In this document: positions 1,661-64,000 of the stretch, piece after piece
Numbering within the stretch: position 1 is the stretch's first letter
How the letters are laid out: each line of letters starts with the position of its first letter
Assembly (NCBI GenBank): GCA_963995525.1
Contig: OZ023213.1
Location: forward strand, 14,561,533 to 14,625,532
Reading direction: 5' to 3'
Source: Escarpia spicata
Lineage: Eukaryota; Annelida; Polychaeta; Sabellida; Siboglinidae
Length of the DNA stretch: 64,000 nt
Translations under genes and position numbers: made by a program
Notes under the pieces: generated by a model
The model's input: only the letters and a program-made list of their open reading frames with translations
The model's database searches: none
Told to the model about the DNA's origin: nothing

Positions 1661-1785
1661 ATATGTATGTATGAGAATCACGAAAAGAGGAACGTCGGAG
1701 TAATTAAGTGTACATTCCTCATTTGCCTTTGGCGAACATAAAAAACGCATTGAAAAATATGCATTATGTCTTCCTACTTGTTTAT

Positions 1786-2545
1786 TTTGGTCGTCCACGT
1801 TTTCTTTTTTCCTTCAGGTGTCGATATGAATGCTCCTTTGGAGATGCTGTCGTCTTTTGTTCACAGGATATGGCCGATCAATCTCCATTTTCTTGTGATG
1901 AATTTATTTTACATATTGTTTTGTCTAATAATTCTGAGCAGTTGCTTGTTGGAGATTTGTCGTGTTCAGAATATTGTCATTACATTTCGAAGGCATTTTG
2001 TTGAAAGGTATTAAGGTGTTTGGTGTCAAGTTCTGTCATACGCCAGCATAGTGATCCATAGAGACAAATTGTGATTACACAGCTTCGGCAAAGTTAGCCT
2101 TTTCTTTTAGAATATATTGTTGATCTCCAAACAGGTTTCTGTTTGAAGAAAACCTGTCTGGTCTTGTTCATGCGATTCTTTATGTCAACATCGGGCTCTG
2201 CTTCTTTGCATACTATGCTTCCCAGATAGGTGAAGGTGTCTGTGTTTTGCACTTATTCATGATCGAGGTAGATCTATACCGGATTTCTCTGATTTATTCC
2301 ATCACCTTTGATTTATTTTGTTTATCTTTAGTTCAAATTTTTGGTGGTGTATTTGCGTGTGTTTGTTTTTCCTGATTGTCATGTCGCATATGAGACAGAA
2401 CTGCTACATTATAATCGAATTCGACGTCATCGAGAAATGAGAACATTGTCCATCGTCTCCCTTCTGTTGGTCTTCTTGTTGTGTTTTCATAATCAAAGGA
2501 ATAATATTACTAAGATATTCCACTAAAACCGGATGCTCTATAGCA
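1786..2545 (-). mobile_element. LINE-A fragment, U1
   Basis: Reverse complement of the post-RT part of the LINE at 1-1660, beginning with the complement of the KRGRP segment near 1790 and running back to the segment before the FADD region near 2520. It carries stops and indels, so it is a relic. The open frames on the plus strand here are antisense to it. Confidence 0.85.
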
Positions 2546-2724
2546 GCATTCAGAGAGCATAGCGTAATAAGCTTTTATTTGATTGACCAGTCAACTGGTT
2601 CATCAGCAGATGCCCACTGCGTATGGCACGCGGTGGACATAGGTCGTGAAGAGGAAGTCATGTGCACAAGAACATATCAGTTAATTAATAAAATATGTTG
2701 GCACAAGACATCACAAACAATACG

Positions 2725-3600
2725 CGGAATGGCACAATTTGATGTATCATTTTGATGGTGACCTTGTTCATCCTACACTCCATAGTTAGGCCACCACTTT
2801 ACAATTCCATGCCAATCATATTGACGGGGATACATTACGCAAGGGTGTACAACATGGTCCAGTGTAGGTAGACAAAGTAGATAATTATGCAAACATTGTA
2901 ACTGTACAACGTTTGCGGAATGTCGCAGTTTTGAACACTCATCACTTGGTGATGACCTTGCTTGACCTTCACTCCACACTTACTGCACCACTTGATAGGT
3001 CCCCGTATTTTAGGGGAGACAATACTTTTTCAAAATGTATATCACATGGTCATGAGTAAATGTGTAACGAAGATAGGCTATAGGCCACCATTTTTACAGT
3101 ATAACTTTTACGGGACGGTGCAATTTTGAATATTTATCATTTGACGGTGACACAAACTCCATCAACTGATACCTCCAAGTGATATATTATTTAGATGGGA
3201 AGAAATTGTTGTTTCACTCTATATGTAACATGTCCATAGACTTGCAGTCGATACAGGATAATTGTAACTAAATAAAGTTCGCGGTATTCCAAAAGTTCAG
3301 ATATTCATAATTTTGTGGAGACCTGGTTTGACATTAGCTCCACACTTATTATACAGTGAAACAGCTTGATATCGTATCGTGTTTTGACAGGGCACCAATA
3401 CGCTTTCCAAAAATATATGGCATAGCTATTTTATTATTAGAGTAATTGTAATTATAATACATTTGCGAAAGCGGACAATTTCGAAAAATAATCATTTGAC
3501 GGTGACCTTGTTTGCCCTTGGAATCACGCTAGTTCTACGACAGGCCTCGTTGTGATGGCTATATCTAGGGTATACCCTTTGAGTTTTTGCATGGGGAGGG
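2725..3600. repeat. Nested degenerate tandem repeat, U1
   Basis: Five diverged copies of a block about 170-196 bp long. Each centres on a sequence like TTTGACGGTGACCTTGTTTG, preceded by an AATTTTGAATATT-like string and a 'GTTTGCGGA' string and followed by CTCCACACTTA. The GGTGACC-like cores lie near 2757, 2950, 3146, 3316 and 3501. Minus-strand reading frames here are by-products of the repeat. Confidence 0.6.
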
Positions 3601-4579
3601 GGACATTAAAGTCTTTCCTTTAAGTAGTGCCAAGCGCTCGTCTATTGAGGAGATATCAACGAATATCATGAATTTATATTGGTCAGAGCTAATTTCTATA
3701 TTCATCCGACAAATATGCATACTATGATTTGTTCACTAACGTAAAGAGTTCATACAAAAACGCTCAAGGATGCCAGAGTCGCACCGGTCGGATTATTGAT
3801 CTGCAAGATTAGAAGGTCGCAAAAATGCAACAAAACACCGTGCGGTCCTTAATGCTCGGTCCACCTTCATCTCAAGTCGGTATCAAGATAATATCTAGAA
3901 ATACAAATATGTTGCTGGATATACCCACCGATTGGTTTTGGCGTTTTGAGATATTGCTATTTAAAACAGTGTTTATTTATTTACTTTTATTATAACACTA
4001 ACTTTAGTTGGCCACCAAATAGCACTAGCGCATGAATAAAAACAAAGTCAACATTGACAAAAAAACAGGCTATTGTGATATGTTCGCCGCACATCAAGAA
4101 CAAACTGTCAATGCTTCACATAGCACTTGCCACTTGATAGTGAATATTTACACTGCGGCCAGGAACATTGGTATTTTCTTTGATGATTCAGCAAATGTGT
4201 CAAGTGGTATATCTTGATATACACAATATTGGAAGAAGTCGAAAACGTCTAGATAAGAACACCAAGCAGAAGAATGTGCATACCTACGTAACCTCTCGTT
4301 ATAACAGTGAAACTTTTTAATATACACATTTATTTCTTTTATTTCTTATTACTTTCTTTGAACTTGTCATTTTAAATAGTATGCAATACTGTTATTTTGC
4401 ATATTGTTTACTATTTATTATTGTTATAAACATTAGTGTTTTTAATAACCATGATATATATATAGGACGTAGATTGTTATGCCACTCTAATTTGTAAAAA
4501 TGACGTATTTTTGGCGCAGAAAAATTAAGTTACATTATTACTAGTATTAAACTGTACGGCGCGGTGTAAAAAAACTATT

Positions 4580-4815
4580 TAACATAAATGTCATGCGCCA
4601 CAGATATCCAACGCAGCTGACTTATTGCCGCCGTCATGCTGTGGTGGTCACACCGATGAATGCAGAGGTCGACACACGCTGGTACTCGCTGAATCATCTC
4701 AACGATATGAACCAGCTTTTTGGTATTGCAGACCAGGGCCACTTTTCAGAAGTCGAGCTGCGACGTGATCAGTTCTTTTATGCTCAGATGCGGCAGAGAT
4801 GTGAGTCGCGCTACA
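4580..4815 (-). mobile_element. LINE-B relic (CR1/L2-like RT C-terminal part), U1
   Basis: On the minus strand a broken frame runs through the conserved segment after the RT catalytic region of CR1/L2/Jockey-like LINEs: an ELITSQLDF-like block (family TSRLDYCN), then VEMIQRVPARVDL (family LQRVQNAAARL), then DHHSMTAAIRQLRWIPV (family DHITPVLKELHWLPV). The family sequences are from general knowledge, not a search. One internal stop replaces the family Cys after the LDF/LDY block. The plus-strand open frame over this interval is antisense. Confidence 0.6.
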
Positions 4816-5606
4816 CCACATGATTGACTTGCTCGACAGAATGCGTGTGCATAGAACATGAACGTTTCCTCATGTTCGCTTTATATCTGAGGCACCGTAC
4901 TCTCTTGAATTAATTGACGACGCTTCGTATGAAAATAATACATTTTCTCTGTTTGGAATTCGGTCTTGTATGTACACGTGCTTTTCACTATTTTTGTCTA
5001 TTACGCGACCCACTCGTCGATTAGCAGAGTACGTGTAATAACAATAAAATAAATAAGGCGCTCACTAACGATGAACTGCTCAAACCTTTATTATAGTATA
5101 CGTGCTACATACGGAGTGCATATGTTCAACCCGATAACAATGAACTTATTGTTATACAGAGGAGACTTTCTACGTCTTACACCCATCAACTGTGACGATC
5201 AATTTGTTGTTTGTAGGCATGTTTCTTTGCTGTGTTCTTTTGCACTTTAAAAAAAAAAAATCATATGTGTCAGACGGTATGTTATCAAAACCAAGGCGTA
5301 CACTTAAAATCTCGCATGGGTCTCTTATGTTTGGTAGATAAACTGTCGCTAAATATCATTGATATAGCGTATTTCGCAATTATATAAAGTATTCCAATGT
5401 GGTGATGCTGTCACCAACTACGTGTGTCTCCAATCTGTATACGGGATGAAGGCAGAGAGGTACATAGAACGAATAAACACTACAACTGACTTTAGCGGAA
5501 ATAGAAGAGGTGGCGAATATATGGTTTCAGCGTTTGTAGAATGGAAAATAATTGTAAAACACGCAAGACAAATCCGAAGTATGTATTTGAACATTCGGAT
5601 ACACAC

Positions 5607-5768
5607 CTACAAAATACACACTCACACACACAAACACTGACATACACAAAAACACACACACAAACACATAGACAAACACACACACATATAAACACCCACA
5701 CAAACACATACACACAAACACACACACACAAACACACATACACATACCAATACACACACATACGCACA
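5607..5768. repeat. (AC)n microsatellite, imperfect, U1
   Basis: Imperfect CA-rich tract with AAAC and ATAC interruptions, just beyond the predicted polyadenylation site of gene copy 1. Its position is the same in every unit, and its length and purity differ. Confidence 0.9.
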
Positions 5769-5890
5769 TATGCTCAGAAGGCAAATATAATTACGATATT
5801 ATTCTGCCAAAATAATTGTTCATAATGTTTTTTCATGCAATAGCTTAACTAATTTGTTAGATTTTGAAATAGAGACTCCGACACAACATA

Positions 5891-5915
5891 TTTATTGTAA
5901 AGAAGTAGCTTTATT
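5891..5915 (-). terminator. Polyadenylation signals, gene copy 1
   Basis: Two AATAAA hexamers on the minus strand (5910-5915 and 5891-5896), about 630 bp past the stop. They are the first AATAAA downstream of the coding region. The implied 3' UTR is long, and no transcript data support it. Confidence 0.45.
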
Positions 5916-6545
5916 TTAGCGAAATGTTCTCATACTAATGCTGGATACAGCGAACGTGTAGGACGTATATTCATATAACATTCTGTCCTTACATGCTCGC
6001 TTTTTCCATAATCTTGCGAAGAGAGACAGAGAGACCAGTGACAGCCACTACAAACGAGAAAATAACACAGTTATTTAGTGACGATATAACTCTGGTATAA
6101 CAATAACAATTACAACACTAATCATAATTATTATTATTATTATAAAAACATCAGAGTAATAATAACAATTAATTGCAAAGATTTTACAAAAATTTACATC
6201 AACTTGGTAGATACGCATATGTGAACAGCAGCAATTGTGTAAATAACCGATCGGTATGTCACACTTTGCATTCAGGATTTCTCTTTCTGGAAAGCAACTA
6301 CAAGAGCTACATCAGGAAAAAGAAAATAAAGCCAAAGAAATTACATTGTCAACTATTATCGATCCCCTCATTCAATACAGGATACAATGTGACGATATAA
6401 GATACACTGTGTGAACACTGAACATCGGTTACGATAACAGGCGCAGATGAATGACGGCGACGGCGAATAAGAATTCACAAAAGTTCTATGAAACATAATG
6501 TATATTTCAAAGGGTAAATGAGTAAGTCACCTTCTATTTTTCTGC

Positions 6546-8160
6546 TTATCGCTCGCCACAACAGCCGTTGCACCTTCTGACACAACGATGGCGTTTGCTG
6601 TCGAAGTGACGCCTGTATCCGCTGCATCGCCTGTAGCGAAGGGGACGTCCCCACTTGCAGTAGACGTAGCGATTGCATCCGTTGCAGACTGTCGCCTGCC
6701 ATCCGCTGTATTTCTCACAGTAAGTCTCTCTGCAGCCTACAAAAAACTTTATTTATACCTTTTATGATAAGAGTATTCATTGGGAACATAATTAAAACAA
6801 AACATGATATAACGTTCATTAAATCAGACTGCCATGGTTGTCACTAAGAACGTCTTGCACCATTCGCATATCTACAAAAATATGCGGCACGCGTTGACTT
6901 CACGCTGTACATAAAAAGATCAATGTGTACTTTGTAAAACGAAGGTGACCGCTATTGTTACAAGGAAAGGAACAAAACGTATACGAACCGCATCGTCCCA
7001 ATCTCGGGTAGTAAGACTGGTTCAATTCACATGAGTGGTAGTAGGTGGTGCCTCTGTTACATTTGTAATAGTAGCGACCGTAGAAGTAGGACGATGAGTA
7101 GTAGTTGGCGTTTCGGCTGTATCGACAGCGATCATTGCAGAGTCCTTCAAAACATAAACCACAATGACGTGATTTAAGAGTGTAGTCCACAACTATATAC
7201 TCCAGACGGCATGGGGTCAATGAAGTCTTTGGCTTATCTAGCGTCCAACAATTTCCCACCTACGGATATCCCGCGAACAGATGGCTGTCAATATAATTTG
7301 TGAACATATTCATACCGCTAGCATTAACACAATTATGAGATAATTGTTTCCAGTCATTTACTGTCCTCAGAATGAATGAGTACTTTCTGATATCCAAAAT
7401 ACACTGATTCTTCACTAATGTTGCGTTGTGCCCTCTGGTTATAATGTATTCTATCAGTTTGAAGAAAATATTTCCATCAATATCCTCATAACCCTTGAAT
7501 ATCTTAAAATCTTCTATTTCGTCTCCTCTTAGTCCCCTAGTCTCTATTCTTGTCAACCCACTTTCTAATAGGCGTAACCAATATCAAGTTAATTTTTATA
7601 ATTAATTACACCAATATTCAGCAATGTGATCGCTACTCTTACCACAGCTTCCAGAGACAGTGACGCATCGGTCCACGGGGCAACGGCCGTACACAACTCT
7701 CCTGCCGACACATCTGTAGTAGTAGGGCAGAGGCTTCACCAGTGACGGGTAGAAGTAGTTAGAGCGACGATTCCTGCAGCAATCGTAGTCGTAACCGTTC
7801 CAACATCCGTCGTAACGGTAGTGCGCTGAAAGGAAAAGCAAGTAAACCTTCGAATTGTTCAATCTTGTCCAACATTCCATGAGATTATAATACACACATA
7901 CCAATTCGCATGCACGTATTTAAGCATGCACGCATGCACGCACGCACGCGCGCGCGCGCACACACACATGCACACACAATCAAACACGACTAGGCCAAAT
8001 TATCCTAAAACACGAGAACATGCGCTCGTGTACGAGAAAGAGGACAAAATCACAAACACAAACACCCGGCAACACTGTCAATTTTACTTGATAATAATAC
8101 CGTACCTTCAGCCGCATATACAGCAACAAGAGCCAGCAATGCAATGAACAACTTCGCCAT
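6546..8160 (-). CDS. Secreted Cys/Tyr/Arg-rich protein with three CBM14-like modules, copy 1
   Basis: Spliced coding exons are 8106-8160, 7643-7825, 6989-7144 and 6546-6736, giving 194 residues. All junctions are GT-AG and all coding introns are phase 1. The start has a strong context (A at -3, G at +4) and opens the signal peptide MAKLFIALLALVAVYA. Module 1 (about residues 20-80), module 2 (81-131) and module 3 (133-194) each fill one exon. Each contains an aromatic-Y-C, 9-10 residues, C, then a later C, as in the second half of peritrophin-A/CBM14 chitin-binding domains: YYYRCVGRRVVYGRC, YYYKCNRGTTYYHSC and a Y-C...K/R-R-C version. The mature protein has about 28 Tyr and about 30 Arg. Chitin or matrix binding is inference; the N-terminal halves of the modules are atypical. 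Copy 1 differs from copies 3-5 at N93, H116, R167 and S178, the last replacing a cysteine. The last exon must be read in the frame giving CRETYCEKYSGW, not the longer-looking overlapping frame. Confidence 0.8.
7260..7580 (-). mobile_element. LINE-C (CR1-like) C-terminal fragment in intron 3, copy 1
   Basis: Lies within intron 3 (7145-7642) in the same orientation as the gene. An open frame of 98 codons reads ESGLTRIETRGLRGDEIEDF, then TRGHNATL, LDIRKYSF, RTVNDWKQL, and ends VNASGMNMF...NYIDSHL. This is the standard C-terminus of CR1-like LINE ORF2 (family RRLRGDLIE...LDVRK..F..RVVN.WN.LP..VV.A...N.FKN.LD). U1 alone keeps the frame open through YIDSHL. Confidence 0.8.
7913..7980. repeat. (GC/AC)n alternating purine-pyrimidine tract in intron 2, copy 1
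   Basis: GCATGCACGCACGC-type sequence leading into CGCGCGCGCG and ACACACAC, inside intron 2 (7826-8105). Strictly alternating purine-pyrimidine of this kind is the classic Z-DNA-prone composition. Confidence 0.85.
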
Positions 8161-8648
8161 GATGTCAGGTTTTCACCTACAATTATATCCAGTGTTTTAC
8201 ATCTTAGGCCGTATCACTGAATTATGTCTGCAGATATTTCAACGGATCTCTGCATTGAATTGTGTAATATAGCGTGAATGAAACTTGCATTCATTGCACA
8301 TGACGCTTTGTTATTACCTATATTAATGCCCGTATGTTGTGTGGATGTCTTGTTAGATGACAAACATGAGAGTAATACTTACCAAGTGTTAGACGACACA
8401 CAACATATTTAAATAAACTCATTAACGAGACTATATTTTAAATCATTCATCCCATAATACGTATAAACAAAGTGAATGCCTTATACGTCCCTGATTTAAC
8501 CATTCTTTATAGAAAACGACTTGTTATTACATCGCCCAGTCTAAACTCTTGTTTAAGTTAGTATACTTGTGGTGATCGTCTAACAAATAAGGAACACATA
8601 CCTATTTCAATATATATTTGTAAAGGTAAAAATGATTATCTTACTTAC

Positions 8649-8745
8649 CGTTTAGATGACGATGCGACCAACCGATCTTCGACTGAAGCAAGTTGTGCTA
8701 AAGTGTGGAAATGTTGCTGTGTTTATACACCTGTGTCTGAGTCAC
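8649..8745 (-). promoter_or_regulatory. TATA promoter and non-coding first exon, copy 1
   Basis: Minus-strand TATAAA at 8722-8727, with a CACCTG E-box touching it (8728-8733) and a TGAGTCA/TGACTCA AP-1-type site at 8738-8744. A start about 30 bp below the TATA box would be near 8696. The leader exon ends at 8649 before GTAAGTAAG. Intron 1 (8177-8648) is spliced to TGTAG|GTGAAAACC, 16 nt before the ATG. The same arrangement recurs in copies 2, 3, 5 and 6. Confidence 0.7.
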
Positions 8746-10950
8746 TGAGGCCTCGACGCCGAACAGGTAACAGTATTTGTTAGAAGTTAATCGAGTCACG
8801 ACGAATTAGAAGACGAAGGGGTGTTGGTGATCCTAAATACTAAAATCTATAAAAACGAAACGTTGCCATACGATGTAACTTATATGTGTCTGTTCTAATC
8901 GTCGTCTAATCCAAAATTAACACAGTTTTATAGCAATATAACAAGTGTGGTGTGATAAAGTAAACACAATATACTTTCCTAAACCACCTCACTTAAGATT
9001 ATCTTTAATCGATTCATCGTACTTCACCCGAGCAAACATTAATAATATGTCGTGTTACTGTACAACTGTTTTTCCTCGTTTTTCGTGTTTTCTTATTTGA
9101 ATTATGACCAGGTAATTACTTAGTTGACAAATTGCCTTTGTTAGCGTGTTTGTTTTTGCCAACTCATATTATACATAGCGTTTCACAATTCTGGTTTTTC
9201 ACATGTTGGCTCCAACTGACGTCATATCATGATACATACGTGTGCGATACATTGATGTAAATGTCAGCAAATTAATTAAGTATCCGGATAGTTTCTTGCA
9301 ATGTTGATATATATGTAGTTTTAACACTCGAACAAGTTGTTCATCCGAATTCTCTGAAATATGACATATTTGAAAAAGAATGTTTTAAGAAAAAAAGCAA
9401 TTATGGTGGCGAAAGAAATTACGATTATTTCGTGAGCACGTCTGTCAATTACACTTGACGATATGGCTTTATACTCCCATCATCTTTCTTGTGGACCAAC
9501 TTGGGTATCAGCACTGCTGTAGCGCTACATTGATCTGTTCCACCTCTTTCTTTCAGAATGCTGGTTTTGTGACGATGTTTTTGCATGTGTCCTGAAATGT
9601 TTTGTGGGACAGCCTGCTCACTACACCATCTGACGAGCAGAGGAAGAACATTTCCCTATGAACGCCGCCTGTGTCTAGAATTTCCTAGATATGTGATAAG
9701 AAACTATCGTTATTTATCTGGTAAATATAATATAATTGAATGAATGAATGAATTTTGTATTTGGGTTCAACAAGTGAAACACGGACATGTTCCAATATCA
9801 TTTATGTAGAAACTAGTTTACATAATTTTGTTCATACACGTGCTACTAAGGGATACTAGCAATTAGCAATGTTGCAATGGCTATGCTTAAAAAGCGTGCG
9901 TGCATTGAAAGATTAAAGACGCACCTGCCGTCGTGTAAGTTGTTTTTGTCATACAACGGTTTGTGAAAAAATACAGACACTTGTTTTTATCATGTTAAAG
10001 CACTCTACAATACAACATGTTTCCTTAGCAGCAACAGAGCGTCTTGTTGGTAGACAACAATGAGTTTTGTAAAATAAAATAATAATTGTTGACATTCGTG
10101 CGGAGATCAGCTCTTCAGAAAGTATACACATGCGTGTTTTGTGATATCAGGTGAATACCAACTCTTGAAAAGCAGCAGAATAGAAATTTATCCCTGATTT
10201 ACGTGGATGCCCCGAACTCTATGATGATTGCATATTGGAATAAACAGTACCCAACAAACGAGCAGTTCCATAATATATATACTCATGCGGACATACACAT
10301 AAATGCTGTCAAACATTCATAACATCAATTGCGGAAAGGTGTACGATCGCGACCACGACCAATTGCGCCGAACGAATTTAATTAGTGCAATGCACGATTC
10401 TTACGCGAGTCTTTCTTAAAAACCATGCTAATTTTTCAATTCTATGAAATTTCGTCATTAACTGAAATGACGCATAAGACGATGTAATAAACATAACCCT
10501 ATACATTGGTCAGGGAGAACGTCACTCAAACCGGACTGACAACTATCGTATGGCCTCCATTACCAGTACAAAGCCAATGTTAAGAGGTATGAGGAAAGAT
10601 CTTACCACCGATGCCACCGACTACGGTTAGGATCAGTAAGAAAGCACTACAATTTACTACACTAGTATACATCGTTCGAAGTTTTGAATCAATAACTCGT
10701 TTGATCTAATAATTCAAATCATCAGTAAAGTTGAGTAACTAGTATAAAATATTCAGGTGAATGTGCGACACGAGTATGGTAATTTATTAATGTGTTGATA
10801 TTGTCGTAATTCATAGATGTCTCAAAAACACGTCCCGCAAACGTTTAATGTTTGGGAGGCTAACTATATTCCCTTAAAGTCACCTTCGTCAAACTACCAG
10901 GTGCAATACTTTGTTTAACTGCTTAGTCAAACGATGCCGTTTTTTGTTAA

Positions 10951-11835
10951 GGTGGAAACAAGGGTCCTTCACCTTCTCCTGACTGCAGCTATCTTTGTAG
11001 TTTGGCACCAGCTTACATGTAGTTCTTTGAGTTATTTTTCTACAGTCTTACTCCTTGTTTGTTTTGGTCGTCCACGTTTTCTTTTTTCCTTCAGGTGTCG
11101 ATATGAGTGCCCATTTGGAGATACTGTCGTCTTTTGTTCACAGGATATGGCTGATCAATCTCCACCTTCTTGTGATGAATTTATTTTTCATATTGTTTTG
11201 TCTAATAATTCTGAGCATTTGCTTGTTGGAGAATCGTCGTATTCAGAATATTTTCATTATATTTCGAAGGCATTTTGTTGAAAGGTAGTAATGTGTTTGG
11301 TGTCAAGTTCTGTCATACACCAGCATTGTGATCCATACAGATACATTGTGAATACACAGCTTCGGCATAGTCTCAGCCTTTACTTCTAGAATATATTGTT
11401 GATCTCCAAAAGGGTTTCTGTTTGAAGAAAACCTGTCTGGACTTGTTCATGCGATTCGTTATGTCAACATCGGCCTCTGCAACTTTGCACACAATTCTTC
11501 CCAGATAGGTGAAGGTATCTGTGGTTTGCACTTATTCATGATTGAGGTAGATCTATATCGGATTTCTCTGATTGATTCCCATCACCTTTGATTTATTTTT
11601 GTTTATCTTTAGTTCTAATTTGTTGGTGGTGTATTTTCGTGTGTTTGTCTTTTCCTGATTGTCATGTCGCATATGAGACAGGACTGCTACATTATAATCG
11701 AATTCGACGTCATCGAGAAATGAGAACATTGTCCATCGTCTCCCTTCTGTTGGTCTTGTTGTTGTGTTTTCATAATCGAAGGAATAATATTACTAAGATA
11801 TTCCACTAAAACCGGATGCTCTATAGCAGCATAAA
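10951..11835 (-). mobile_element. LINE-A fragment, U2
   Basis: Same relic as at 1786-2545, with an additional C-terminal end (complement of the RRRWRTLVSTLC-like tail near 10955-11000). It is disrupted by stops. Plus-strand frames of about 115 codons here are antisense. Confidence 0.8.
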
Positions 11836-12013
11836 GAGAGCATAGCGTAACAAGCTTTTATTTGATTGACCAGTCAACTGATTCATCAGCAGTTGCCCAC
11901 TGCGTATTGCACGCGGTGGACATAGGTCGTGAAGAGGCTGTCATGTGCACAAGAACATATCAGTTAATTAATAACATATTTTGGCACAAGATATCACCAA
12001 CAATACGCGGAAT

Positions 12014-12925
12014 GGCACAATTTCATGTATCTTTTTGATGGTGACCTTGTTCAACCTATACTCCACAGTTAGGCCACCACTTTACAATTCCATGCCAATC
12101 ATATTGACGGCGATACATTACGCATGGGTGTACACCATTGTCCAGTGTAGGTAGACAAAGTAGATAATTATGCAAACATTGTAACTGTACAACGTTTGCG
12201 GAATGTCGCAGTTTTGAACACTCATCACTTGGTGATGACCTTGCTTGACCTTCACTCCACACTTACTGCACCACTTGATAGGTCCCCGTAGTATCCTGTA
12301 TTTAAGGGGAGACAGTACTTTTTCAAAATGTATATCACATGGTCATGAATAAATGTGTAACGAAGGTAGGCTATAGGCCACCATTGGTACAGTATAACGT
12401 TTGCGGGACGGTGCAATTTTGAATATTTATCAATTGACGGTGACACAAACTCCATCAACTGATACCTCCAAGTGATATATCATTTGGATGGGAAGAAATT
12501 GTTCTTTTGCGGTATATGTAACATGTCCATAGACTTGCAGTCGATACAGGGTAATTGTAACCAAATAACGTTCGCGGTATTCCAAAAGTTCAGATATTCA
12601 TAATTTTTTGGAGACATGGTTTGACATTAGCTCCACACTTATTATACAGTGAAACAGCTTGATATCGTATCGTGTTTTGACAGGGCACCAATACGCTTTC
12701 AAAAAATATATGGCATAGCTATTTTATTATTAGAGACATATATATGCTACCATTGTAATTATAATACACTTGCGAAAGCGGATAATTTCGAAATATATTC
12801 ATTTGACGGTGACCTTGTTTGCCCTTGGAATCATGCTAGTTCTACGATAGGCCTCGTTGTGATGGCCATATCTAGGGTATACCCTTTGAGTTTTTGTATG
12901 GGGAGGGGGACATTGAAGTATGCCC
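12014..12925. repeat. Nested degenerate tandem repeat, U2
   Basis: The same five-block array as in U1, with GGTGACC-type cores and CTCCACACTTA strings at corresponding spacing. Confidence 0.6.
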
Positions 12926-13888
12926 TTTAAGTAGTGCCTATCGCTCGTCTATTGAGGAGATATCAACGAATATCATGAAGTTATATTGGTCAGAGCTAAT
13001 TTATATATTCATCCGACAAATATGCATACTATGATTTGTTCACTAACGCAATGAGTTTATACAAAAACGCTCAAGGATGCCAGAGTTGCACAAGTCGGAT
13101 TATTGACATAGAATATTAGAAGGTCACAAAAATGCAACAAAACACCGTGCGGTCCCTTATGCTCGGTCCACCTTCATCTCAAGTCGGTATCAAGATAATA
13201 TCTAGAAATACAAATATGTCGCTGGATATACCCACCGATTGGTTTTGGCGTTTTGAGTTATTGCTATTTAAAACAGTGTTTATTTTTTTACTTTTATTAT
13301 AACACTAACTTTAGTTGGCCACCAAATAGCACTAGCGCATGAATAAACACAAAGTCAACATTGACAAATAAACAGGCTATTGTGATATGTTCGCCGCACA
13401 TCAAGAACAAACTGTCAATGCTTCACATAGCACTTGCCACTTGATAGTTAATATTTACACTGCGGCCAGGAACATTGGTATTTTCTTTGATGATTCAGCA
13501 AATGTGTCAAGTGGTATATCTTGATATACACAGTATTGGAAGAAGTCGAAATCGTCTAGATCAGAACACCAAGCAGAAGAATGTGCATATCTACGTAACT
13601 TCTCGTTATAACAGTGACACGTTTTAATATACACATTTCTTTCTTTTATTTCTTATTACTTTCTTTGAACTTGTCGTTTTAAATAGTATGCATTGTTGTT
13701 ACGTTTCATATTGTTTACTATTTATTATTGTTATAAATATTAGTGTTTTTAATAATCATGATATATATATAGGACATAGATTATAATGCGACTCTAATTT
13801 GTAATAATTACGTATTTTTGGCGCAGAGAAATTATGTTACATTATTACTAGTATTAACATGTGCGGCGCGGTGTCAAAAAACTATTTA

Positions 13889-14912: not shown

Positions 14913-15120
<208 letters not shown>

Positions 15121-52140: not shown

Positions 52141-53099
52141 AGTAGTGCCTATCGCTCGTCTATTGAGGAGATATCAACGAATATCATGAAGTTATATTGG
52201 TCAGAGCTAATTTCTATATTCATCCGACAAATATGCATACTATGATTTGTTCACTAACGCAATGAGTTCATACAAAAACGCTCAAGGATGCCAGAGTTGC
52301 ACCGGTCGGATTATTGACCTAGAATATTATAAGGTCACAAAAATGCAACAAAACACCGTGCGGTCCCTAATGCTCGGTCCACCTTCATCTCAAGTCGGTA
52401 TCAAGATAATATCTAGAAATAAAAATATGTCGCTGGATATACCCACCGATTGGTTTTGGCGTTTTGAGTTATTGCTATTTAAAACAGTGTTTATTTCTTT
52501 ACTTTTATTATAACACTAACTTTAGTTGGCCACCAAATAGCACTAGCGCATGAATAAACACAAAGTCAACATCGACAAATAAACAGGCTATTGTGATATG
52601 TTCGCCGCACATCAAGAACAAACTGTCAATGCTTCACATAGCACTTGCCACTTGATAGTGAATATTTACACTGCGGCCAGGAACATTGGTATTTTCTTTG
52701 ATGATTCAGCAAATGTGTCAAGTGGTATATCTTGATATACACAGTATTGGAAGAAGTCGAAATCGTCTAGATCAGAACACCAAGCAGAAGAATGTGCATA
52801 CCTACGTAACCTCTCGTTATAACAGTGAAACTTTTTAATATACACATTTCTTTCTTTTATTTCTTAATACTTTCTTTGGACTTGTCGTTTTAAATAGTAT
52901 GCATTGTTGTTACGTTTCATATTGTTTACTATTTATTATTGTTATAAACATTAGTGTTTTTAATAATCATGATATATATAGGACATAGATTATAATGCGA
53001 CTCTTATTTGTAATAATTATGTATTTTTGGCGCAGAGAAACTATGTTACATTATTACTAGTATTAACATGTGCGGCGCTGTGTCAAAAAACTATTTAAC

Positions 53100-53338
53100 A
53101 TAAATTTCATGCGCCACAGGTATCCAACGCAGCTGTCGTATTGCCGCCGTCATGCTGTGGTGGTCACACCGATGAATGCAGAGGTCGACACGGGCAGGTA
53201 CTCGCTGAATCATCTCAACGATATGAACCAGCTTTTTGGTATTGCAGACCAGGGCCACTTTTCAGAAGTCAAGCTGCGACGTGCTCAGTTCTTGTATGCT
53301 CAGATGGGGCAGAGATGTGATTCGCGCAACACCACATG
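53100..53338 (-). mobile_element. LINE-B relic, U6
   Basis: Same relic as in the other units. Confidence 0.6.
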
Positions 53339-54114
53339 ATTGACGTGCTCGACAGAATGCGTGTGCATAGAAGATGAACTTTTCCTCGCTTTATATCTGA
53401 GGCACCGTAGTATCTTGAATTAATTGACGACGCTTCGTATGAAAATAACACATTTTCTCTGTTTGGAATTCGGTCTTGTATGTACACGTGCTTTTCGCTA
53501 TTTTGGTTTATTATGCGACCTACTCGTCGATTAGCAGAGTACGTGTAATAACAATAAAATAAATAAGGCGCTCACTAACGATGAACTGCTCAAACCTTTA
53601 TTATAGTATACGTTCTACATACGGAGTGCATATGTTCAACCCGATAACAATGAACATATTGTTATACAGATGAGACATTCTATATCTTACACCCATCAAC
53701 TGTGAAGATCAATTTGTTGTTTCTAGGCATGTTTCTTTGCTGTGTTCTTTTGCACTTTTTAATAAAAAATCATATGTGTCAGACGGTATGTTATCAAAAC
53801 CAAGGCGTACACATAAAATCTCGCATGGCTCTCTTATGTTTGGTAGATAAACTGTCGCTAAATATCATTGATATAGCGTATTTCGCTATTCTATAAAGTA
53901 TTCCAATGTGGTGATGCTGTTACCAACTACGTGTGTCTCCAATCTGTATATGGGATGAAGGCAGAGTGGTACATAGAACGAATAAACACTACAACTGACT
54001 TTAGCGGAAATAGAAGAGGGGGCGAATATATGATTTCAGCGTTTGTAGAATGGAAAATAATTGTAAAACACGCAAGACAAATCCGAAGAATGTATTTGAA
54101 CATTCGGATACACA

Positions 54115-54181
54115 CATACAAAACACACACTCACACGCACAAACACTGACATACACAAAAACACACACACAAACACATATA

Positions 54182-54279
<98 letters not shown>

Positions 54280-54322
54280 AACCACACACACATACACATA
54301 CATATACACGCACACACGCACA
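54115..54322. repeat. (AC)n microsatellite, U6
   Basis: Pure (AC) run from about 54186 to 54265, flanked by imperfect CA repeats. Confidence 0.95.
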
Positions 54323-54444
54323 TATGCTCAGAAGGCAAATATAATTACGATATTATTCTGCCAAAATAATTGTTCATAATGTTTTTTCATGCAATAGCTT
54401 AACTAATTTGGTAGATTTTGAAATAGACACACCGACACAACATA

Positions 54445-54469
54445 TTTATTGTAAAGAAGTAGCTTTATT
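54445..54469 (-). terminator. Polyadenylation signals, gene copy 6
   Basis: Minus-strand AATAAA at 54464-54469 and 54445-54450. Confidence 0.45.
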
Positions 54470-55105
54470 TTAGCGAAATGTTCTCATACTGATGCTGGAT
54501 ACAGCGAACGTGTAGGACGTATATTCATAGAACATTCTGTCCCTACATGCTCGCTTTTTCCATAATCTTGCGAAGTGAGACAGATAGACCAGTGACAGCC
54601 ACTACAAACGAGAAAATAACACAGTTATTTAGTGACGATATAACTCTGGTATAACAATAACAATTACAACACTAATCATAATAATTAGTATTATTATAAA
54701 AACATCAGAGTAAGAGTAATAATAACAATTAATTGTAAAGATTTTACAAAAATTTACATCAACTTGGTAGATACGCATATGTGAACACCAGCAATTGTGT
54801 AAATAACCGATCGGTATGTCACACTTTGCATTCAGGATTTCTCTTTCTGGAAACCAATTACAAGAGCTACATCAGTGAAAAGAAAATAAAGCCAAAGAAA
54901 TTACATTGTCAACTATTATCGATCCCCTCATTCAATACAGGATACAATGTGACGATATAAGATACACTGTTTGAACACTGAACATCGGTTACGATAACAG
55001 GCGCAGATGAATAACGGCGACGGCGAATAAGAATTCACAAAAGTTCTATGAAAAATAATGTATATTTCAAAGGGTAAATGAGTAAGTCACCTTCTAATTT
55101 TCTGC

Positions 55106-56706
55106 TTATCGCTCGCCACAACAGCCGTTGCACCTTCTGACACAACGATGGCGTTTGCAGTCGAAGTGACGCCTGTATCCGCTGCATCGCTTGTAGCGAA
55201 GGGGACGTCCCCACCTGCAGTAGACGTAGCGATTGCATCCGTTGCAGACTGTCGCCTGCCATCCGCTGTATTTCTCACAGTAAGTCTCTCTGCAGCCTAA
55301 AAAAAAGTTATTTATACCTTTTATGATAAGAGTATTCATTGGGAACATAATGAAAACAAAACATGATATAACGTTAATTAAATCAGACTGCCATGGTTGT
55401 CACTAAGAACGTCTTACACCATTCGCATATCTACAAAAATACGCGGCACGCGTTGACTTCACGCTGTACATAAAAAGATCAATGTGTACTTTGTAAAACG
55501 AAAGTGACCGCTATTGCTACAAGGAAAGGAACAAAACGTATACGAACCGCATCGTCCCAATCTTGGGTAGTAAGACTGGTTCAATTCACATGAGCGGTAG
55601 TAGGTGGTGCCTCTGTTACATTTGTAATAGTAACGACCGTAGAAGTAGGACGATGAGTAGTAGTGGGCGTTTCGGCTGTATCGACAGCGATCATTGCAGA
55701 GTCCTTCAAAACATAAACCACAATGACGTGATTTAAGAGTGTAGTCCACAACTACATACTCCAGACGGCATGGGTTCAATGAAGTATTTGGCTTATCTAG
55801 CGTCCAACAATTTCCCACCATATCCCGCGAACAGATGGCTGTCAATTTAATTTGTGAACATATTCATACCGCTAGCATTAACACAATTATGATATAATTG
55901 TTTCCAGTCACTTACTGTCCTCAGAATGAAAGAGTACTTTCTGATATCCAAAATACACTGATTCTTCACTAATGTTGCGTTGTGCCCTCTGGTTATAATG
56001 TCTTCTATCAGTTTGAAGACAATATTTCCATCAATATCCTCATAACCCTTGAATATCTTAAAATCTTCTATTTCGTCTCCTCTTAGTCCCCTAGTCTCTA
56101 TTCTTGTCAACCCACTTTCTAATAGGCGTAATCAAGATCAACTTAATTATTATAATTAATTAAACCAATATTCAGCAATGTGATCGCTACTCTTACCACA
56201 GCTTCCAGAGACAGTGACGCATCGGTCCACGGGGCAACGGCCGTACACAACTCTCCTGCCGACACATCTGTAGTAGTAGGGCAGAGGCTTCACCAGTGAC
56301 GGGTAGAAGTAGTTAGAGCGACGATTCCTGCAGCAATCGTAGTCGTAACCGTTCCAACATCCGTCGTAACGGTAGTGCGCTGAAAGGAAAAGCAAGTAAA
56401 CCTTCGAATTGTTCAATCTTGTCCAACATTCCATGAGATTATAATACACACACACCAATTCGCATGCACGTATTTATGCATGCACGCACGCACGCGCGCG
56501 CGCGCGCACACACATGCACACACAATCAAACACGACTAGGCCAAATTATCCTAAAACACGAGAACATGCGCTCGTGTACGAGAAAGAGGACAAAATCACA
56601 GACACAAACACCCGGCAACACTGTCAATTTTACTTGATAATAATACCGTACCTTCAGCCGCATATACAGCAACAAGAGCCAGCAATGCAATGAACAACTT
56701 CGCCAT
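55106..56706 (-). CDS. Secreted Cys/Tyr/Arg-rich protein with three CBM14-like modules, copy 6
   Basis: Exons are 56652-56706, 56197-56379, 55548-55703 and 55106-55296, giving 194 residues. It differs from copies 3-5 by Lys159 to Arg (AAG to AGG), directly after a module-3 cysteine; the other changes are synonymous. The acceptor of the last exon is TTTTTTTTAG|GC, after a one-base loss that still leaves a good site. Here the correct frame of the last exon is open well upstream of the exon, which makes the CRETYCEKYSGW reading easy to see. Promoter, leader exon and polyadenylation signals are present. Confidence 0.82.
55825..56134 (-). mobile_element. LINE-C fragment in intron 3, copy 6
   Basis: CR1-like C-terminal fragment with an open frame of 87 codons at 55847-56110. 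A five-base deletion lies just downstream. Confidence 0.8.
56459..56523. repeat. (GC/AC)n tract in intron 2, copy 6
   Basis: Alternating run with one of the longest (CG)n cores in the array. Confidence 0.85.
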
Positions 56707-57194
56707 GATGTCAGGTTTTCACCTACAATTATATCCAGTGTTTTACATCTTAGGCCGTATCACTGAATTATGTCTGCAGATATTTCAACGGATCTCTGCA
56801 TTGAATTGTGTAATATAGCGTGAATGAAACTTGCATTCATTGCACATGACGCTTTGTTATTACCTATATTAATGCCCGTATGTTGTGTGGATGTCTTGTT
56901 AGATGACAAACATGAGAGTAATACTTACCAAGTGTTAGACGACACACAACATATTTAAATAAACTCATTAACGAGACTATATTTTAAATCATTCATCCCA
57001 TAATACGCATAAACAAAGTGAATGCCTTATACGTCCCTGATTTACCCATTCGTTATAGAAAACGACTTGTTATTACATCGCCCAGTCTAAACTCTTGTTT
57101 AAGTTAGTATACTTGTGGTGATCGTCTAACAAATAAAGAACACATACCTATTTCAATATATATTTGTAAACGTAAACATTATTATCTTACTTAC

Positions 57195-57291
57195 CGTTTA
57201 GATAACGATGCGACCAACCGATCTTCGACTGAAGCAAGTTGAGCTAAAGTGTGGAAATGTTGCCGTATTTATACACCTGTGTCTGAGTCAC
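57195..57291 (-). promoter_or_regulatory. TATA promoter and non-coding first exon, copy 6
   Basis: TATAAA at 57268-57273 and AP-1-type site at 57284-57290. The leader exon ends at 57195 before GTAAGT. Confidence 0.65.
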
Positions 57292-58327
57292 TGAGGCCTC
57301 GACGCCGAACAGGTAACAGTATTTGTTAGAAGTTAATCGAGTCACGACGAATTAGAAGACGAAGGGGTGTTGGTGATCCTAAATACTAAAATCTATAAAA
57401 ACGAAACGTTGCCATACTATGTAACTTATATGTGTCTGTTCTAATCGTCGTCTAATCCAAAATTAACACAGTTTTATAGCAATATAACAAGTGTGGTGTG
57501 ATAAAGTAAACACAATGCACTTTCCTAAACCACCTCACTTAAGATTCTCTTTAATCGATTCATCGTACTTCACCCGAGCAAACATTAATAATATGTCGTG
57601 TTACTGTACAACTGTTTTTCCTCGTTTTTCGTGTTTTCTTATTTGAATTATGACCAGGTAATTACTTAGTTGACAAATTGCCTTTGTTAGCGTGTTTGTT
57701 TTTGCCAACTCATATTATACATAGCGTTTCACAATTCTGGTTTTTCACATGATGGCTCCAACTGACGTCATATCATGATACATACGTGTGCGATACATTG
57801 ATGTAAATGTCAGCAAATTGATTAAGTATCCGGATAGTTTCTTGCAATGTTGATATACATGTAGTTTTAACACGCGAACAAGTTGTTCATCCGAATTCTC
57901 TGAAATATGACATATTTGAAAAAGAATGTTTTAAGAAAAAAGCAGTTAGGGTGGCGAAAGAGATTACGAGTATTTCTTGAGCACATCTGTCAATTACAAC
58001 TTGGGTATCAGCACTGCTGTAGCGCTACATTGATCTTTCAGAATGCTAGTTTTGTGACGATGTTTTTGCATGTGTCCTGAAATGTTTTGTGGGACAGCCT
58101 GCTCACTACACCATCTGACGAGCAGAGGAATAACATTTCCCTATGAACGCCGCATGTGTCTAGAATTTCCTAGATATGTGATAAGAAACTATCGTTATTT
58201 ATCTGGTAAATATAATATAATTGAATGAATGAATGAATTTTGTATTTGGGTTCAACAAGTGAAACACGGACATGTTCCAATATCATTTATGTAGAAACTA
58301 GTTTACATAATTTTGTTCACACACGTG

Positions 58328-58483
58328 CTACTAATTTTATTAGGTGATGTATTGATTCAGTTAAAGTTTTATTGGAAAAGGTGGCTCCTCGATAGCGACT
58401 ACCATAGTCTTAGAGGAGTCTCCTGACCTTACTTTGTCTGGGTCAAACAAATTAAAATTCTTCTTCTTCTTCTTCTTCTACTA
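58328..58483 (+). mobile_element. Short retroposon-like insertion with (TTC)n tail, U6
   Basis: All other units with this region read straight through GTGCTACTAAGGG. Here CTACTA is duplicated (58328-58333 and 58478-58483) around 144 bp that end in a (TTC)n tail of about six units preceded by AAACAAATTAAAA. Target duplication plus a simple-repeat tail is typical of a SINE or a 5'-truncated LINE 3' end. No coding sequence is present. Confidence 0.7.
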
Positions 58484-59139
58484 AGGGATACTAGCAATTA
58501 GCAATGTTGCAATGGCTATGCTTAAAAAGCGTGCGTGCATTGAAAGATTAAAGACGCACCTGCCGTCGTGTAAGTTGTTTTTGTCATACAACGGTTTGTG
58601 AAAAAATACAGACACTTGTTTTTACCATGTTAAAGCACTCTACAATACATCATGTTTCCTTAGCAGCAATAGATCGTCCTGTAGGTAAACAACAATGAGT
58701 TTTGTACAATAAAATAATAATTGTTGACATTCGTGCGGAGATCAGCTCTTCAGAAAGTATACACATGCGTGTTTTGTGATGTCAGGTGAATACCAACTCT
58801 TGAAAAGCAGCAGAATAAAAATTTATCCCTGATTGACGTGGATGCCCCGAACACTATGATGATTGCATATTGGAATAAACAGTACCCAACAAACGAGCAG
58901 TTCCATAATATATATACTCATGCGCACATACACATAAATGCTGTCAAACATTCATAACATCAATTGCGGAAAGGTGTACGATCGCGACCACGACCAATTG
59001 CGCCGAACGAATTTAATTAGTACAATGCACGATTCTTACGCGAGTCTTTCTTAAAACCATGCTACTTTTTCAATTCGATGAAATTTCGTCATTAACTGGT
59101 TTAAAGTAACAACCAACGCCCTACGCCCGATCCTGTATT

Positions 59140-59281
59140 AAGAGAGCGAGAGACAGAGAGCGTGAGAGAGACAGAGGAAAAGAGCGAGACAGAGAGCAAG
59201 AAAGCGAGAGAGAGGGAGTGAGAAAGATATACAGTCACAGACACTGTGAGGAAGAGAGGGAGAGAGAGGGGGAAAACAGAA
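59140..59281. repeat. GA-rich polypurine tract, U6
   Basis: Same tract as in U2-U5, with a GCGTGAGAG variant and a few private substitutions. Confidence 0.9.
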
Positions 59282-59989
59282 ATATATACATTTATTTTGA
59301 TTAAAATATGCCTAGAGTAAGCTAGAAAACATACACAAAATTAAACTGTGTTTATAGCATGAGAATATGTAATAAACATAACCCTATACATTGGTCAGGG
59401 AGAACGTCACTCAAACCGGACTGACAACTATCGTATGGCCTCCATTACAAGTACAAAGACAATTTTAAGAGGTATGAGGAAAGATCTTACCACCGATGCC
59501 ACCGCCTACGGTTAGGATCAGTAAGTAAGCACTACAATTTACTACACTAGTATACATCGTTCGAAGTTTTGAATCAATAACTCGTTTGATCTAATAATTC
59601 AAATCATCAGTAAAGTTGAGTAACTAGTATAAAATATTCAGGTGAATGTGCGACAAGAGTATGGTAATTTATTAATGTGTTGATATTGTCGTAATTCATA
59701 TATGTCTCAAAAACACGTCCCGCAAACGTTTAATGTTTGGGAGGCTAACTATCTTCCCTTAAAGTCACCTTCGTCAAACTACCAGATGCAATACTTTGTT
59801 TAACTGCTTAGTCAAACGATGCCGTTTTTTGTTAACGAATAAACCATCGGTCACATACACATGTTTGTTTTCTTAAATATGCCAAGAGAATCACGAAAAG
59901 AGGAACGTCGGAGTAACTAAGTATACATTGCTCATTTGCCTTTGGCGAACATAAACAACGCATTGAAAAATATATGCATTATGTTTATA

Positions 59990-60905
59990 GACTTTTCTCC
60001 TCTTTATTGCCCATTGGCACATAGGGTGGAAACAAGGGTCCTCCACCTTCTCCTGTTGCAGCTATCTTTGTAGTTTGGCACCAGCTTACATGTAGTTCTT
60101 TGAGTTATTTTTCTACAGTCTTACTCCTTGTTTGTTTCGGTCGTCCACGTTTTCTTTTTTCCTTCAGGTGTCGATATGAGTGCTCCTTTGGATATATTGT
60201 CGTCTTTTGTTCACAGGATATGGCTGATCAATCTCCACCTTCTTGTGATGAATTTATTTTTCATATTGTTTTGTCTAATAATTCTGAGCATTTGCTTGTT
60301 GGAGAATCGTCGTGTTCAGAATATTTTCATTATATTTCGAAGGCATTTTGTTGAAAGGTAGTAAGGTGTTTGGTGTCAAGTTCTGTCATACGCCAGCATT
60401 GTAATCCATACAGATAAATTGTGAATACACAGCTTCGGCATAGTCTCTGCCTTTACTTCTAGAATATATTGTTGATCTCCAAACGGGTTTCTGTTTGAAG
60501 AAAACCTGTCTGGTCTTGTTCATGCGATTCGTTATGTCAACATCGGCCTCTGCAACTTTGCACACAATTCTTCCCAGATAGGTGAAGGTATCTGTGGTTT
60601 GCACTTATTCATGATTGAGGTAGATCTATACCGGATTTCTCTGATTGATTCCCATCACCTTTGATTTATTTTTGTTTATCTTTAGTTCTAATTTTTTGGT
60701 GGTGTATTTTCGTGTGTTTTTCTTTTCCTGATTGTCATGTCGCATATGAGACAGGACTGCTACATTATAATCGAATTCGACGTCATCGAGAAATGAGAAC
60801 ATTGTCCATCGTCTCCCTTCTGTTGGTCTTGTTGTTGTGTTTTCATAATCGAAGGAATGATATTACTAAGATATTCCACTAAAACCGGATGCTCTATAGC
60901 AGCAT
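59990..60905 (-). mobile_element. LINE-A fragment, U7
   Basis: Same relic as in the other units. The minus-strand frame TDTFTYLGRIVCKVAEADVD to KPVWRSTIYSRSKG (60386-60604) is the longest intact piece in the array. Confidence 0.85.
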
Positions 60906-61086
60906 TCAGAGAGCATAGCGTAACAAGCTTTTATTTGATTGACCAGTCAACTGGTTCATCAACAGATGCCCACTGCGTATTGCACGCGGTGGACATAGGT
61001 CGTGAAGAGGCTGTCATGTGCACAAGAACATATCAGTTAATTAATAACATATTTTGGCACAAGATATCACCAACAATACGCGGAAT

Positions 61087-61998
61087 GGCACAATTTCATG
61101 TATCTTTTTGATGGTGACCTTGTTCAACCTACACTCCACAGTTAGGCCACCACTTTACAATTCCATGCCAATTATATTGACTGGGATACATTAAGCATGG
61201 GTGTACACCATTGTACAGTGTAGGTAGACAAAGTAGATAATTATGAAAACATTGTAACTGTACAACGTTTGCGGAATGTCGCAGTTTTGAACACTCATCA
61301 CTTGGTGATGACCTTGCTTGACCTTCACTCCACACTTACTGTACCACTTGATAGGTCCCAGTAGTATCCCGTATTTAAGGGGAGACAGTACTTTTTCAAA
61401 ATGTATATCACATGGTCATTAGTAAATGTGTAACAAAGGTAGGCTATTGGCCACCATTGGTACAGTATAACGTTTGCGGGACGGTGCAATTTTGAATATT
61501 TATCAATTGACGGTGACACAAACTCCATCAACTCATTCCTCCAAGTGATATATCATTTGGATGGGAAGAAATTGTTCTTTCGCGGTATATGTAACATGTC
61601 CATAGACTTGCAGTCGATACAGGGTAATTGTAACCAAATAACGTTCGCTGTATTCCAAAAGTTTAGATATTCATAATTTTGTGGAGACATGGTTTGACAT
61701 TAGCTCCACACTTATTATACAGTGAAACAGCTTGATATCATATCGTGTTTTGACAGGGCACCAATACGCTTTCCAAAAATATATGGCATGGCCATTTTTT
61801 TATTAGAAAAATAGATATGCAACCATTGTAATTATAATACGTTTGCGGAAGCGAACAATTTCTCAATATAATCATTTGCGGTGACCTTGTTTGCCCTTGG
61901 AATCATGCTAGTTCTTCGACAGGCCTCGTTGTGATGGGGATACCTAGGGTACATACTTTGGGTTTTTGTATGGGGAGGGGGTCATTTTAGTCTGTCCG
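61087..61998. repeat. Nested degenerate tandem repeat, U7
   Basis: Five blocks. The last one lies past the divergence step and is visibly more different from its counterparts. Confidence 0.55.
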
Positions 61999-62974
61999 TT
62001 AAGTAGTGCCTATCGTTCGTCTATTGAGGAGATATAAACGAATATCATGAAGTTATATTGGGCAGAGCTAATTTGTGTATTCATGCGACAAATATGCATA
62101 CTATGATTTGTTCACTGACATAATCATACAACAATACACCATATACCCTGAAAACATGCGTTTGGACATATCATTTTGATTGTTTGGATGTTTACAATTC
62201 GAGATATTCAGGAAAGTAGTATATCTATTTTAAAGGCGATAGCAAATTTGCATATTAATGAGTTAATACAAAAACGCTCAAGGATGCCAGAGTGGCACCC
62301 GTCGGATTATTGAAGAAGATTAGAAGGTCACAAAAATGCAAGAAAACACCGTGCGGACCCTAATGCACTGTCCACCTTCATCTCAAGTCCGTATAAAGAT
62401 AATATCAACAAATACAAATATGTCGCTGGATATACCCACCGATTGGTTTTGGTGTTTTGAGGTATTGCTAATTAAAACAGTGTTGATTTAGTTATTTTTA
62501 CTATAACATTAATTTAATTGGCCACAAAATACCACTAGCGCATGAAAAAATGTTCGCCGCACATCAAGAACAAATTGTCAATGCTTCACATAACACTTGC
62601 CACTTGATAGTGAATATTTACACTGCGGCCAGGAATATTGATGATTCAACAAATGTGTGATGTGGTATATCTTGATGTCCACAGTATTGGAAGAATTCGA
62701 AATCGTCTAGATCAGAACACCAAGGTAACCTCTCGTTACAACAGTAAAACTTTTTGTTATATACTTTTTATTTATTTATTTATTATTATTCTCTTTGAAC
62801 TCGTCGTTTTAAATAGTATGCACTGATGTTGTAATGTTTAATATGTTTTAGTATTTATTATTGTTAGAAATATTAATGTTTTTAATAATCATGATATATG
62901 TAGGACATAGACTGTAATGCCACTCTATTATGGAATAATTGCGTATTTTTGGCTCGGTGACCAAAAAAACTGCC

Positions 62975-63200
62975 ACAGGTAGCCAACGCAGCTCTCTTAT
63001 TTCCGCCGTCATGTTTTGGTGGTCACGGTGATGAATGCAGAGGTCGACACGCGCAGGTGATCGCTGAATCATCTCGACGATATGAGGCAGCTTTTTGGTA
63101 TTACCGACCAGGGCCGCTTTTCAGAAGTCGAGCGACGAAGTGATCAGTTCTTGTATGCTCAGATGCGGCAGAGATGTGATTCGCGCTACACCACATGATT
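62975..63200 (-). mobile_element. LINE-B relic, U7, diverged
   Basis: The minus strand still shows MIQRSPARVDLCIHHRDHQ and TAEIRELRWLPVA, closer to the general LINE pattern (RELRWLPV) than in U1-U6. This supports the identification of the relic and an older, independent history for this part. Confidence 0.65.
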
Positions 63201-64000
63201 GACGTGCTCGACAGAATGCGTGTGCATAGAAGATGAACGTTTCCTCATGCTCGCTTTATATCTGAGGCACCGTACTATCTTGAATTTATTGACGACGCTT
63301 CGTATGAAAATAACACATTTTCTCTGTTTGGAATTCGTTTTTGTATGCACACATGCTTATTGCTATTGTTCTCTATTACGCGAACTACTCGACGATTAGC
63401 AGGGGACGTGTAATATAACGAAAATAAATAAGGCGCTGACTAACGATGAACTGTTCAAACCTTTGTTAATGTAAACGTCATGTTGGACACTTCTTGAAAA
63501 CATTTTCTGCATTCAGTCTATACAAAATCGAAGCGGTATTATTTTCAAGTTTAAATAATTAAACACTTTTGTTTTATTCGTGTTTCGACATTTTCTCCAA
63601 ATACTAGTGCTACTTACGGTTCGACCCGATAACAATAAATATATTGTTGTACTGATAAGACATTCTCAATCTCACACACAACAATCGTGACTTTCACATT
63701 GTTGTGTCTAGGCTTGTTTGTTTGCTGTGTTCTCTTGCACTTCGGCATTTAGGAAATCATATATTTGAGACGGTATAGTGAGTTTAGCTATTATGATTTT
63801 GTTGTCGAGCGTATACTAAACATTACGATGTTTTTATGTTTAAACATAATATACTGACCTTCTCATTACTGCATGTCATCATAAATTGTAGATTTAAAGT
63901 GGCATGGGTTGTCTGTGCTTTGTCGATCATGCATTATCAATGCGTTTCGCGGAGTATCAATTATTTCATAAACAACGCATACATGCTTTGTATTGTTAGT

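Follow-up and report, generated by a model that had tools for sequence, protein, structure and literature searches.

A tandem array of a gene for a probably secreted, peritrophin-like protein in the tubeworm Escarpia spicata

The closest described systems to the locus analyzed here are the chitin-binding proteins of vestimentiferan tubes. In Paraescarpia echinospica, 35 tube matrix proteins have been reported, with the ChtBD2, ExoChtBD and LamG families tandemly expanded both in this species and in Lamellibrachia luymesi and with Siboglinidae as the phylostratum of ExoChtBD, as stated in the available part of that report (PMC8476170). In Riftia, chitin-related genes are described as expanded and lineage-specific (PMC8789280, excerpt), and two beta-chitin-binding transcripts account for 24 and 59 clones of one subtracted body-wall library (PMC2175520, excerpt). 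The present locus lies in a 64,000-nucleotide stretch of Escarpia spicata (assembly GCA_963995525.1, contig OZ023213.1, positions 14,561,533 to 14,625,532 of the forward strand), referred to below as the window, and is a head-to-tail array of a gene that probably encodes a secreted three-domain peritrophin-like tubeworm protein helping to build the chitin tube or cuticle.

The likeness to the ChtBD2 and ExoChtBD families consists in tandem duplication and, putatively, in a chitin-binding type of tube protein (PMC8476170), and that to the Riftia beta-chitin-specific binding protein in a proposed link to the tube (PMC2175520, PMC8476170), both comparisons being made by description only, with the available parts of these sources. 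Tandem expansion of tubeworm chitin-binding tube families is already published there (PMC8476170), and this array would add another case. No published description of this array or gene family was found in the literature consulted, which is not proof of its being unpublished.

Self-comparison of the window (self-blastn) gives long head-to-tail matches, among them 1768-10464 against 11045-19796 (95.2% identity) and 10948-23139 against 20722-32829 (96.7%), whose length rules out a chance match. The original prediction had proposed seven units on the basis of a landmark sequence recurring at spacings of 9277, 9774, 9686, 9647, 10132 and 9834 bp. All seven positions and all six spacings are right: the landmark is exact at 1789, 11066, 20840 and 60139, has one mismatch at 50305 and two mismatches at 30526 and 40173 (GGTCGTCCTTG), where about 0.5 chance matches with at most one mismatch would be expected on one strand under a uniform-base estimate. 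Six of the units are complete, while the seventh is truncated by the end of the window and has no gene copy inside it. The unit borders, set by cutting the window at the homologous start, are as follows (no strand assigned; self-blastn and unit alignment, except for unit 7, by self-alignment).

1674..64000, tandem array of six complete units and one truncated by the window end
1768..11044, unit 1, 9277 bp
11045..20818, unit 2, 9774 bp
20819..30504, unit 3, 9686 bp
30505..40151, unit 4, 9647 bp
40152..50283, unit 5, 10132 bp
50284..60117, unit 6, 9834 bp
60118..64000, unit 7, partial, 3883 bp, truncated by the window end ahead of the expected place of the gene

One spliced gene is found in each complete unit (6/6), as had been claimed, and it is always on the minus strand, so that the head-to-tail units with a homologous gene in each form a tandem gene array. 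The gene of unit 7, if it exists, lies beyond the window, which holds six copies. All six have coding exons of 55, 183, 156 and 191 bp, separated by GT-AG introns of phase 1. The third donor is weak (GTTCGT), and the same join is seen in Ridgeia gene models; the relatives P0001-P0003, described below, reproduce all three exon joins.

6546..8160, minus strand, gene copy 1 (coding exons 8106-8160, 7643-7825, 6989-7144, 6546-6736)
15902..17508, minus strand, gene copy 2 (coding exons 17454-17508, 16999-17181, 16345-16500, 15902-16092)
25577..27181, minus strand, gene copy 3, the reference (coding exons 27127-27181, 26674-26856, 26020-26175, 25577-25767)
36506..38114, minus strand, gene copy 4 (coding exons 38060-38114, 37603-37785, 36949-37104, 36506-36696)
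45416..47020, minus strand, gene copy 5 (coding exons 46966-47020, 46513-46695, 45859-46014, 45416-45606)
55106..56706, minus strand, gene copy 6 (coding exons 56652-56706, 56197-56379, 55548-55703, 55106-55296)
27734..27752, minus strand, putative TATA-like core promoter of copy 3, GCTGTATAAATACGGCAAC
27670..27716, minus strand, putative noncoding first exon of copy 3, 47 bp, with an inferred start

The putative first exon of copy 3, which lies about 35 bp on from the TATA-like box, ends in a consensus-like donor (G|GTAAGT). By similarity to copy 3, the box and this exon are present in five of the six copies, the TATA-like counterparts starting at 8731 (copy 1, TATAAACA), 18079 (copy 2), 47591 (copy 5) and 57277 (copy 6), and both are read from sequence as a likely promoter and noncoding first exon. 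No TATA-like box was found in the 900 bp upstream of copy 4.

The coding sequence is better conserved than the DNA around it. On average, two of the six copies differ by 0.79% in the coding exons and by 1.98% in the intervening introns, and 13 of 585 coding sites are variable against 62 of 1192 gap-free sites of the introns and the start-codon-adjacent leader (Fisher p=0.0025). Across the unit, 571 of 7272 gap-free noncoding sites vary. Columns gapped in any of the six units were dropped; owing to a deletion in copy 4, this leaves out the putative first exon together with the outer portion of its intron. None of the 1259 noncoding 585-bp blocks (kept from 2000 random starts for having more than 300 usable sites) is as conserved as the coding sequence. 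The 13 variable coding sites comprise seven synonymous, five missense (four of them in copy 1) and one nonsense change. Given about 125 synonymous and about 457 nonsynonymous sites, synonymous changes are in significant excess (p=0.0097), and variability at synonymous sites is close to that of the introns (p=0.83). These tests, which assume independent sites, support purifying selection on the protein; they do not measure selection on copy number.

The protein is 194 residues long and contains 23 Cys, 29 Tyr and 29 Arg. Its N-terminus is hydrophobic, presumably a signal peptide, and from residue 19 onward it has a mass of 21.3 kDa and a pI of 9.4. There is one cysteine-rich stretch per exon in exons 2, 3 and 4, and the fold looks like three peritrophin-A/CBM14-like domains, on models of modest quality. 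The best fold match by E-value is EHEP of Aplysia (PDB 8in3, 8in6), with 20% identity and low TM-scores. EHEP is likewise a Cys-rich protein of about 200 residues with three consecutive peritrophin-A domains, according to the available part of its description, which gives their cysteine spacing as CX15CX5CX9CX12CX5-9C (PMC10619976). The central part of this pattern is partially fitted by the present protein (X9 in domain 1, X9 and X12 in domain 2, X5 and X10 in domain 3), and the outer cysteines are shifted or missing relative to it. A sequence search of solved structures with the protein gave no match. With domain 1 alone, Foldseek gave 26 matches at E<=10 and none at E<=0.001, many of them unrelated SH2 domains.

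Relatives were sought by a search that finds only sequences with short exact words in common. The copy 3 protein had 20 matches among 47 candidates, and a profile of eight sequences had 35 among 1241 candidates (E up to 10): eight from Ridgeia piscesae, seven from Lamellibrachia satsuma and 20 without a name. All 15 named relatives are vestimentiferan, and a restriction of the family to vestimentiferans would be a provisional reading, with 20 of the 35 matches unnamed. The named ones are annotated as hypothetical or uncharacterized, one also as a "secreted protein", and the best match is P0001, with 79% identity across 97% of the query. The name of the Riftia beta-chitin-specific binding protein is absent among these 35 matches (E up to 10; 20 unnamed). 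That protein was reportedly described by Chamoy et al. in 2001. The diverged Ridgeia relatives P0001, P0002 and P0003 each represent a cluster, with 8, 20 and 10 members respectively, sizes that may reflect many near-identical genomic copies or redundant records.

Several gene models suggest tandem copies of the gene in other tubeworms too. In P0034 from L. satsuma, an exon-4-like stretch in another frame is followed by an exon for a signal peptide and then the first part of exon 2, and P0008 from R. piscesae has exon 1, exon 3 and an exon-4-like stretch, then exon 2. P0013 and P0016 are two different exon 2 sequences, and the longest contig given for each measures 24,118 bases.

In the favoured reading, a single gene for a secreted basic three-domain protein of about 21 kDa would have been amplified head to tail, in a segment made of the gene, its own promoter region and about 7.5 kb of flanking DNA. 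The protein would belong to the matrix of the chitin tube or of the cuticle, where it would bind or pack beta-chitin. Unequal crossing over or gene conversion would spread and homogenize the copies and also damage some of them, and the additional copies would raise the output of a bulk structural protein, for which selection for dosage is plausible.

Several observations qualify this reading. Pfam CBM_14 (PF01607) matches the protein below its curated cut-off (12.4 bits, E 0.18, versus 22.1 bits); it matches seven of the 10 sequences of set A1, with a best E of 0.026. A simple dosage story is also at odds with copy 2, which has an in-frame stop at residue 54, and with copy 4, where a deletion of 1287 columns has taken out the TATA-like box and the putative first exon and left the coding sequence intact. 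With these two damaged copies the array is not uniformly maintained. At most four of the six copies look able to give a normal transcript and protein, because of the nonsense change in copy 2 and the deleted promoter region of copy 4. The claim of an amplified secreted-protein gene accordingly stands as to tandem amplification, a signal-peptide-like start and coding constraint, but has to be qualified for one nonsense and one promoterless copy. The encoded protein is identical in copies 3, 4 and 5; relative to copy 3 it has one change in copy 6 (K159R) and four in copy 1 (H93N, R116H, K167R and C178S); the cysteine changed by C178S is likewise missing from the relative P0003.

The units are also less uniform than "near-identical" implies. 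Units 1-6 are 96.0-98.4% identical pairwise over aligned bases, but they carry unit-specific indels of up to 1,287 columns, and units 1 and 7 are diverged. A divergence profile taken in 25 steps of 400 bp puts the difference among units 2-6 at 1.3-2.7% in 22 steps and at 3.8-5.6% in the other three. Compared with these units, unit 1 is diverged by 3.9-7.8% in its first ~4 kb and by 1.6-4.2% further on. For unit 7, which has 89-91% identity to the others and a poorly aligned final stretch, the difference is 2.0-3.6% in the first ~1.6 kb and reaches about 8% or more thereafter (after ~62.1 kb). Both of the largest indels are in unit 4, the 1287-column deletion at 38292 and a 1237-column insertion between ~32.8 and 34.0 kb, part of which unit 5 has in common; unit 6 has a private 150-column insertion near 58.3-58.5 kb. 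Since the interior units are alike and the edges diverged, the array has probably turned over through unequal crossing over or conversion. Recombinational exchange between units is suggested, not demonstrated, by site patterns: among 62 informative sites 36% of site pairs are incompatible, as are 25% of neighbouring sites, where 500 shuffles averaged 36% and went no lower than 18%.

These features bear on a credible alternative, given somewhat less than an even chance, in which the number of copies is selectively neutral: the array grows and contracts by unequal crossing over, and selection only retains some working copies, with no selection for dosage. The persistence of copies 2 and 4 and the private indels in several units are in line with it, as is the pattern of divergence, higher in the edge parts of units 1 and 7 than in the interior, which turnover mainly inside the array predicts. 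It is opposed by the apparent constraint on copies 3-6, with five synonymous sites against one nonsynonymous (p=0.002, for a subset picked post hoc), and by the fused or paired gene models that suggest tandem copies in other tubeworms. The constraint on copies 3-6 argues for retention of several copies, not for dosage itself.

The second alternative concerns the function of the protein, which may have another extracellular role, in antimicrobial or mucosal defence or in binding phenolics or metals, instead of a place in the tube matrix. EHEP, which gives the best fold match, is a digestive protein of a sea hare whose ligands are tannins, not chitin, and some proteins with the CBM14 fold do not bind chitin, as given in the available part of that work (PMC10619976). 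A weaker fold match is tachycitin, an antimicrobial protein with a chitin-binding function, and the basic character of the protein (pI 9.4) and its many Tyr and Arg residues (29 of each among 194) would also suit such a role. Against this, the only named relatives come from dwellers in chitin tubes, in which tandemly expanded chitin-binding families are reported (PMC8476170, available part), and such a role is judged unlikely. Creation of the array by misassembly of one or two true copies or haplotypes is highly improbable, as the six units differ by 1.6-4% (aligned bases) and carry private indels of 69-1287 columns that do not readily come from misassembly, and as gene models also point to tandem copies in further tubeworms.

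The term "macrosatellite" used in the original prediction is fair for the size of the units, but "tandem gene family" describes the locus better. Kilobase-scale head-to-tail repeats are a likeness to the human macrosatellites DXZ4 and D4Z4 as described in the available sources; unlike these, each complete unit here has an ordinary spliced gene, with promoter-like sequence in five of six.

The landmark lies outside the gene, in a dispersed repeat that we take to be retroelement-like, with reverse-transcriptase-like peptide motifs in 1-1667. Two copies of it are listed here.

20837..21526, minus strand, retroelement-like fragment holding the landmark in unit 3, with a matching fragment in seven of seven units
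1..1667, plus strand, degenerate retroelement-like copy at the left array edge, opposite in orientation to the unit fragments

Only 966-1667 of the left-edge copy (943-1657 for one unit) matches the fragments of the units, inverted and with 86-88% identity. The retroelement reading is drawn from these motifs and from the dispersed and inverted occurrence of the repeat. Five peptide pieces of the repeat had no Pfam match to reverse transcriptase, with three sub-threshold unrelated rows only, and one piece compared with the protein collection had a single unnamed match, of 63 member sequences. The left homology edge of the array, 1674, adjoins the degenerate copy, and the array may for this reason extend leftward past the window. 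The homology of unit 7 reaches at least ~63776, at ~80%, which places the right edge outside the window and led to rejection of an array end at 63478.

A prokaryotic-style reading of the window was rejected. Eleven stop-to-stop frames of at least 120 aa occur, the longest of 161 aa, and two on the minus strand include a gene exon. Plus-strand frames near 10.9, 20.6, 30.3, 40.0 and 50.1 kb were rejected as a gene, as they extend into the complementary strand of the retroelement-like repeat. No tRNA was found in the window, nor any Rfam match at gathering thresholds.

Smaller repeats were also noted. The insertion of unit 4 (32880-34046, 1.2 kb) contains an internal direct repeat of ~346 bp (spacing 821 bp, 98%), and unit 5 has a single copy of the repeated stretch (42527-42872). 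A CA-rich microsatellite at 24636-24806 in unit 3 and its counterparts vary in length by unit, with gaps of 46-69 columns, and may serve as a length marker to distinguish units. Also in unit 3, a GA-rich purine tract lies upstream of the gene at 29529-29662, and 21914-22560 holds three diverged copies of a 73-bp repeat, spaced 205 and 369 bp, two of them having 68% and 71% identity with the reference copy.

A wider proposal, tentative and rather doubtful, is that this is a vestimentiferan-only family of strongly diverged three-domain peritrophin-like bulk tube-matrix proteins, kept in homogenized tandem arrays in several lineages, with copy number tracking tube output. In that case fast-growing vent and slow-growing seep species would contrast. 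An array in which apparently working copies stand next to promoterless and nonsense ones offers a way of asking whether the output of a structural protein depends on copy number, and it also lets the rate of turnover be compared between vent and seep species.

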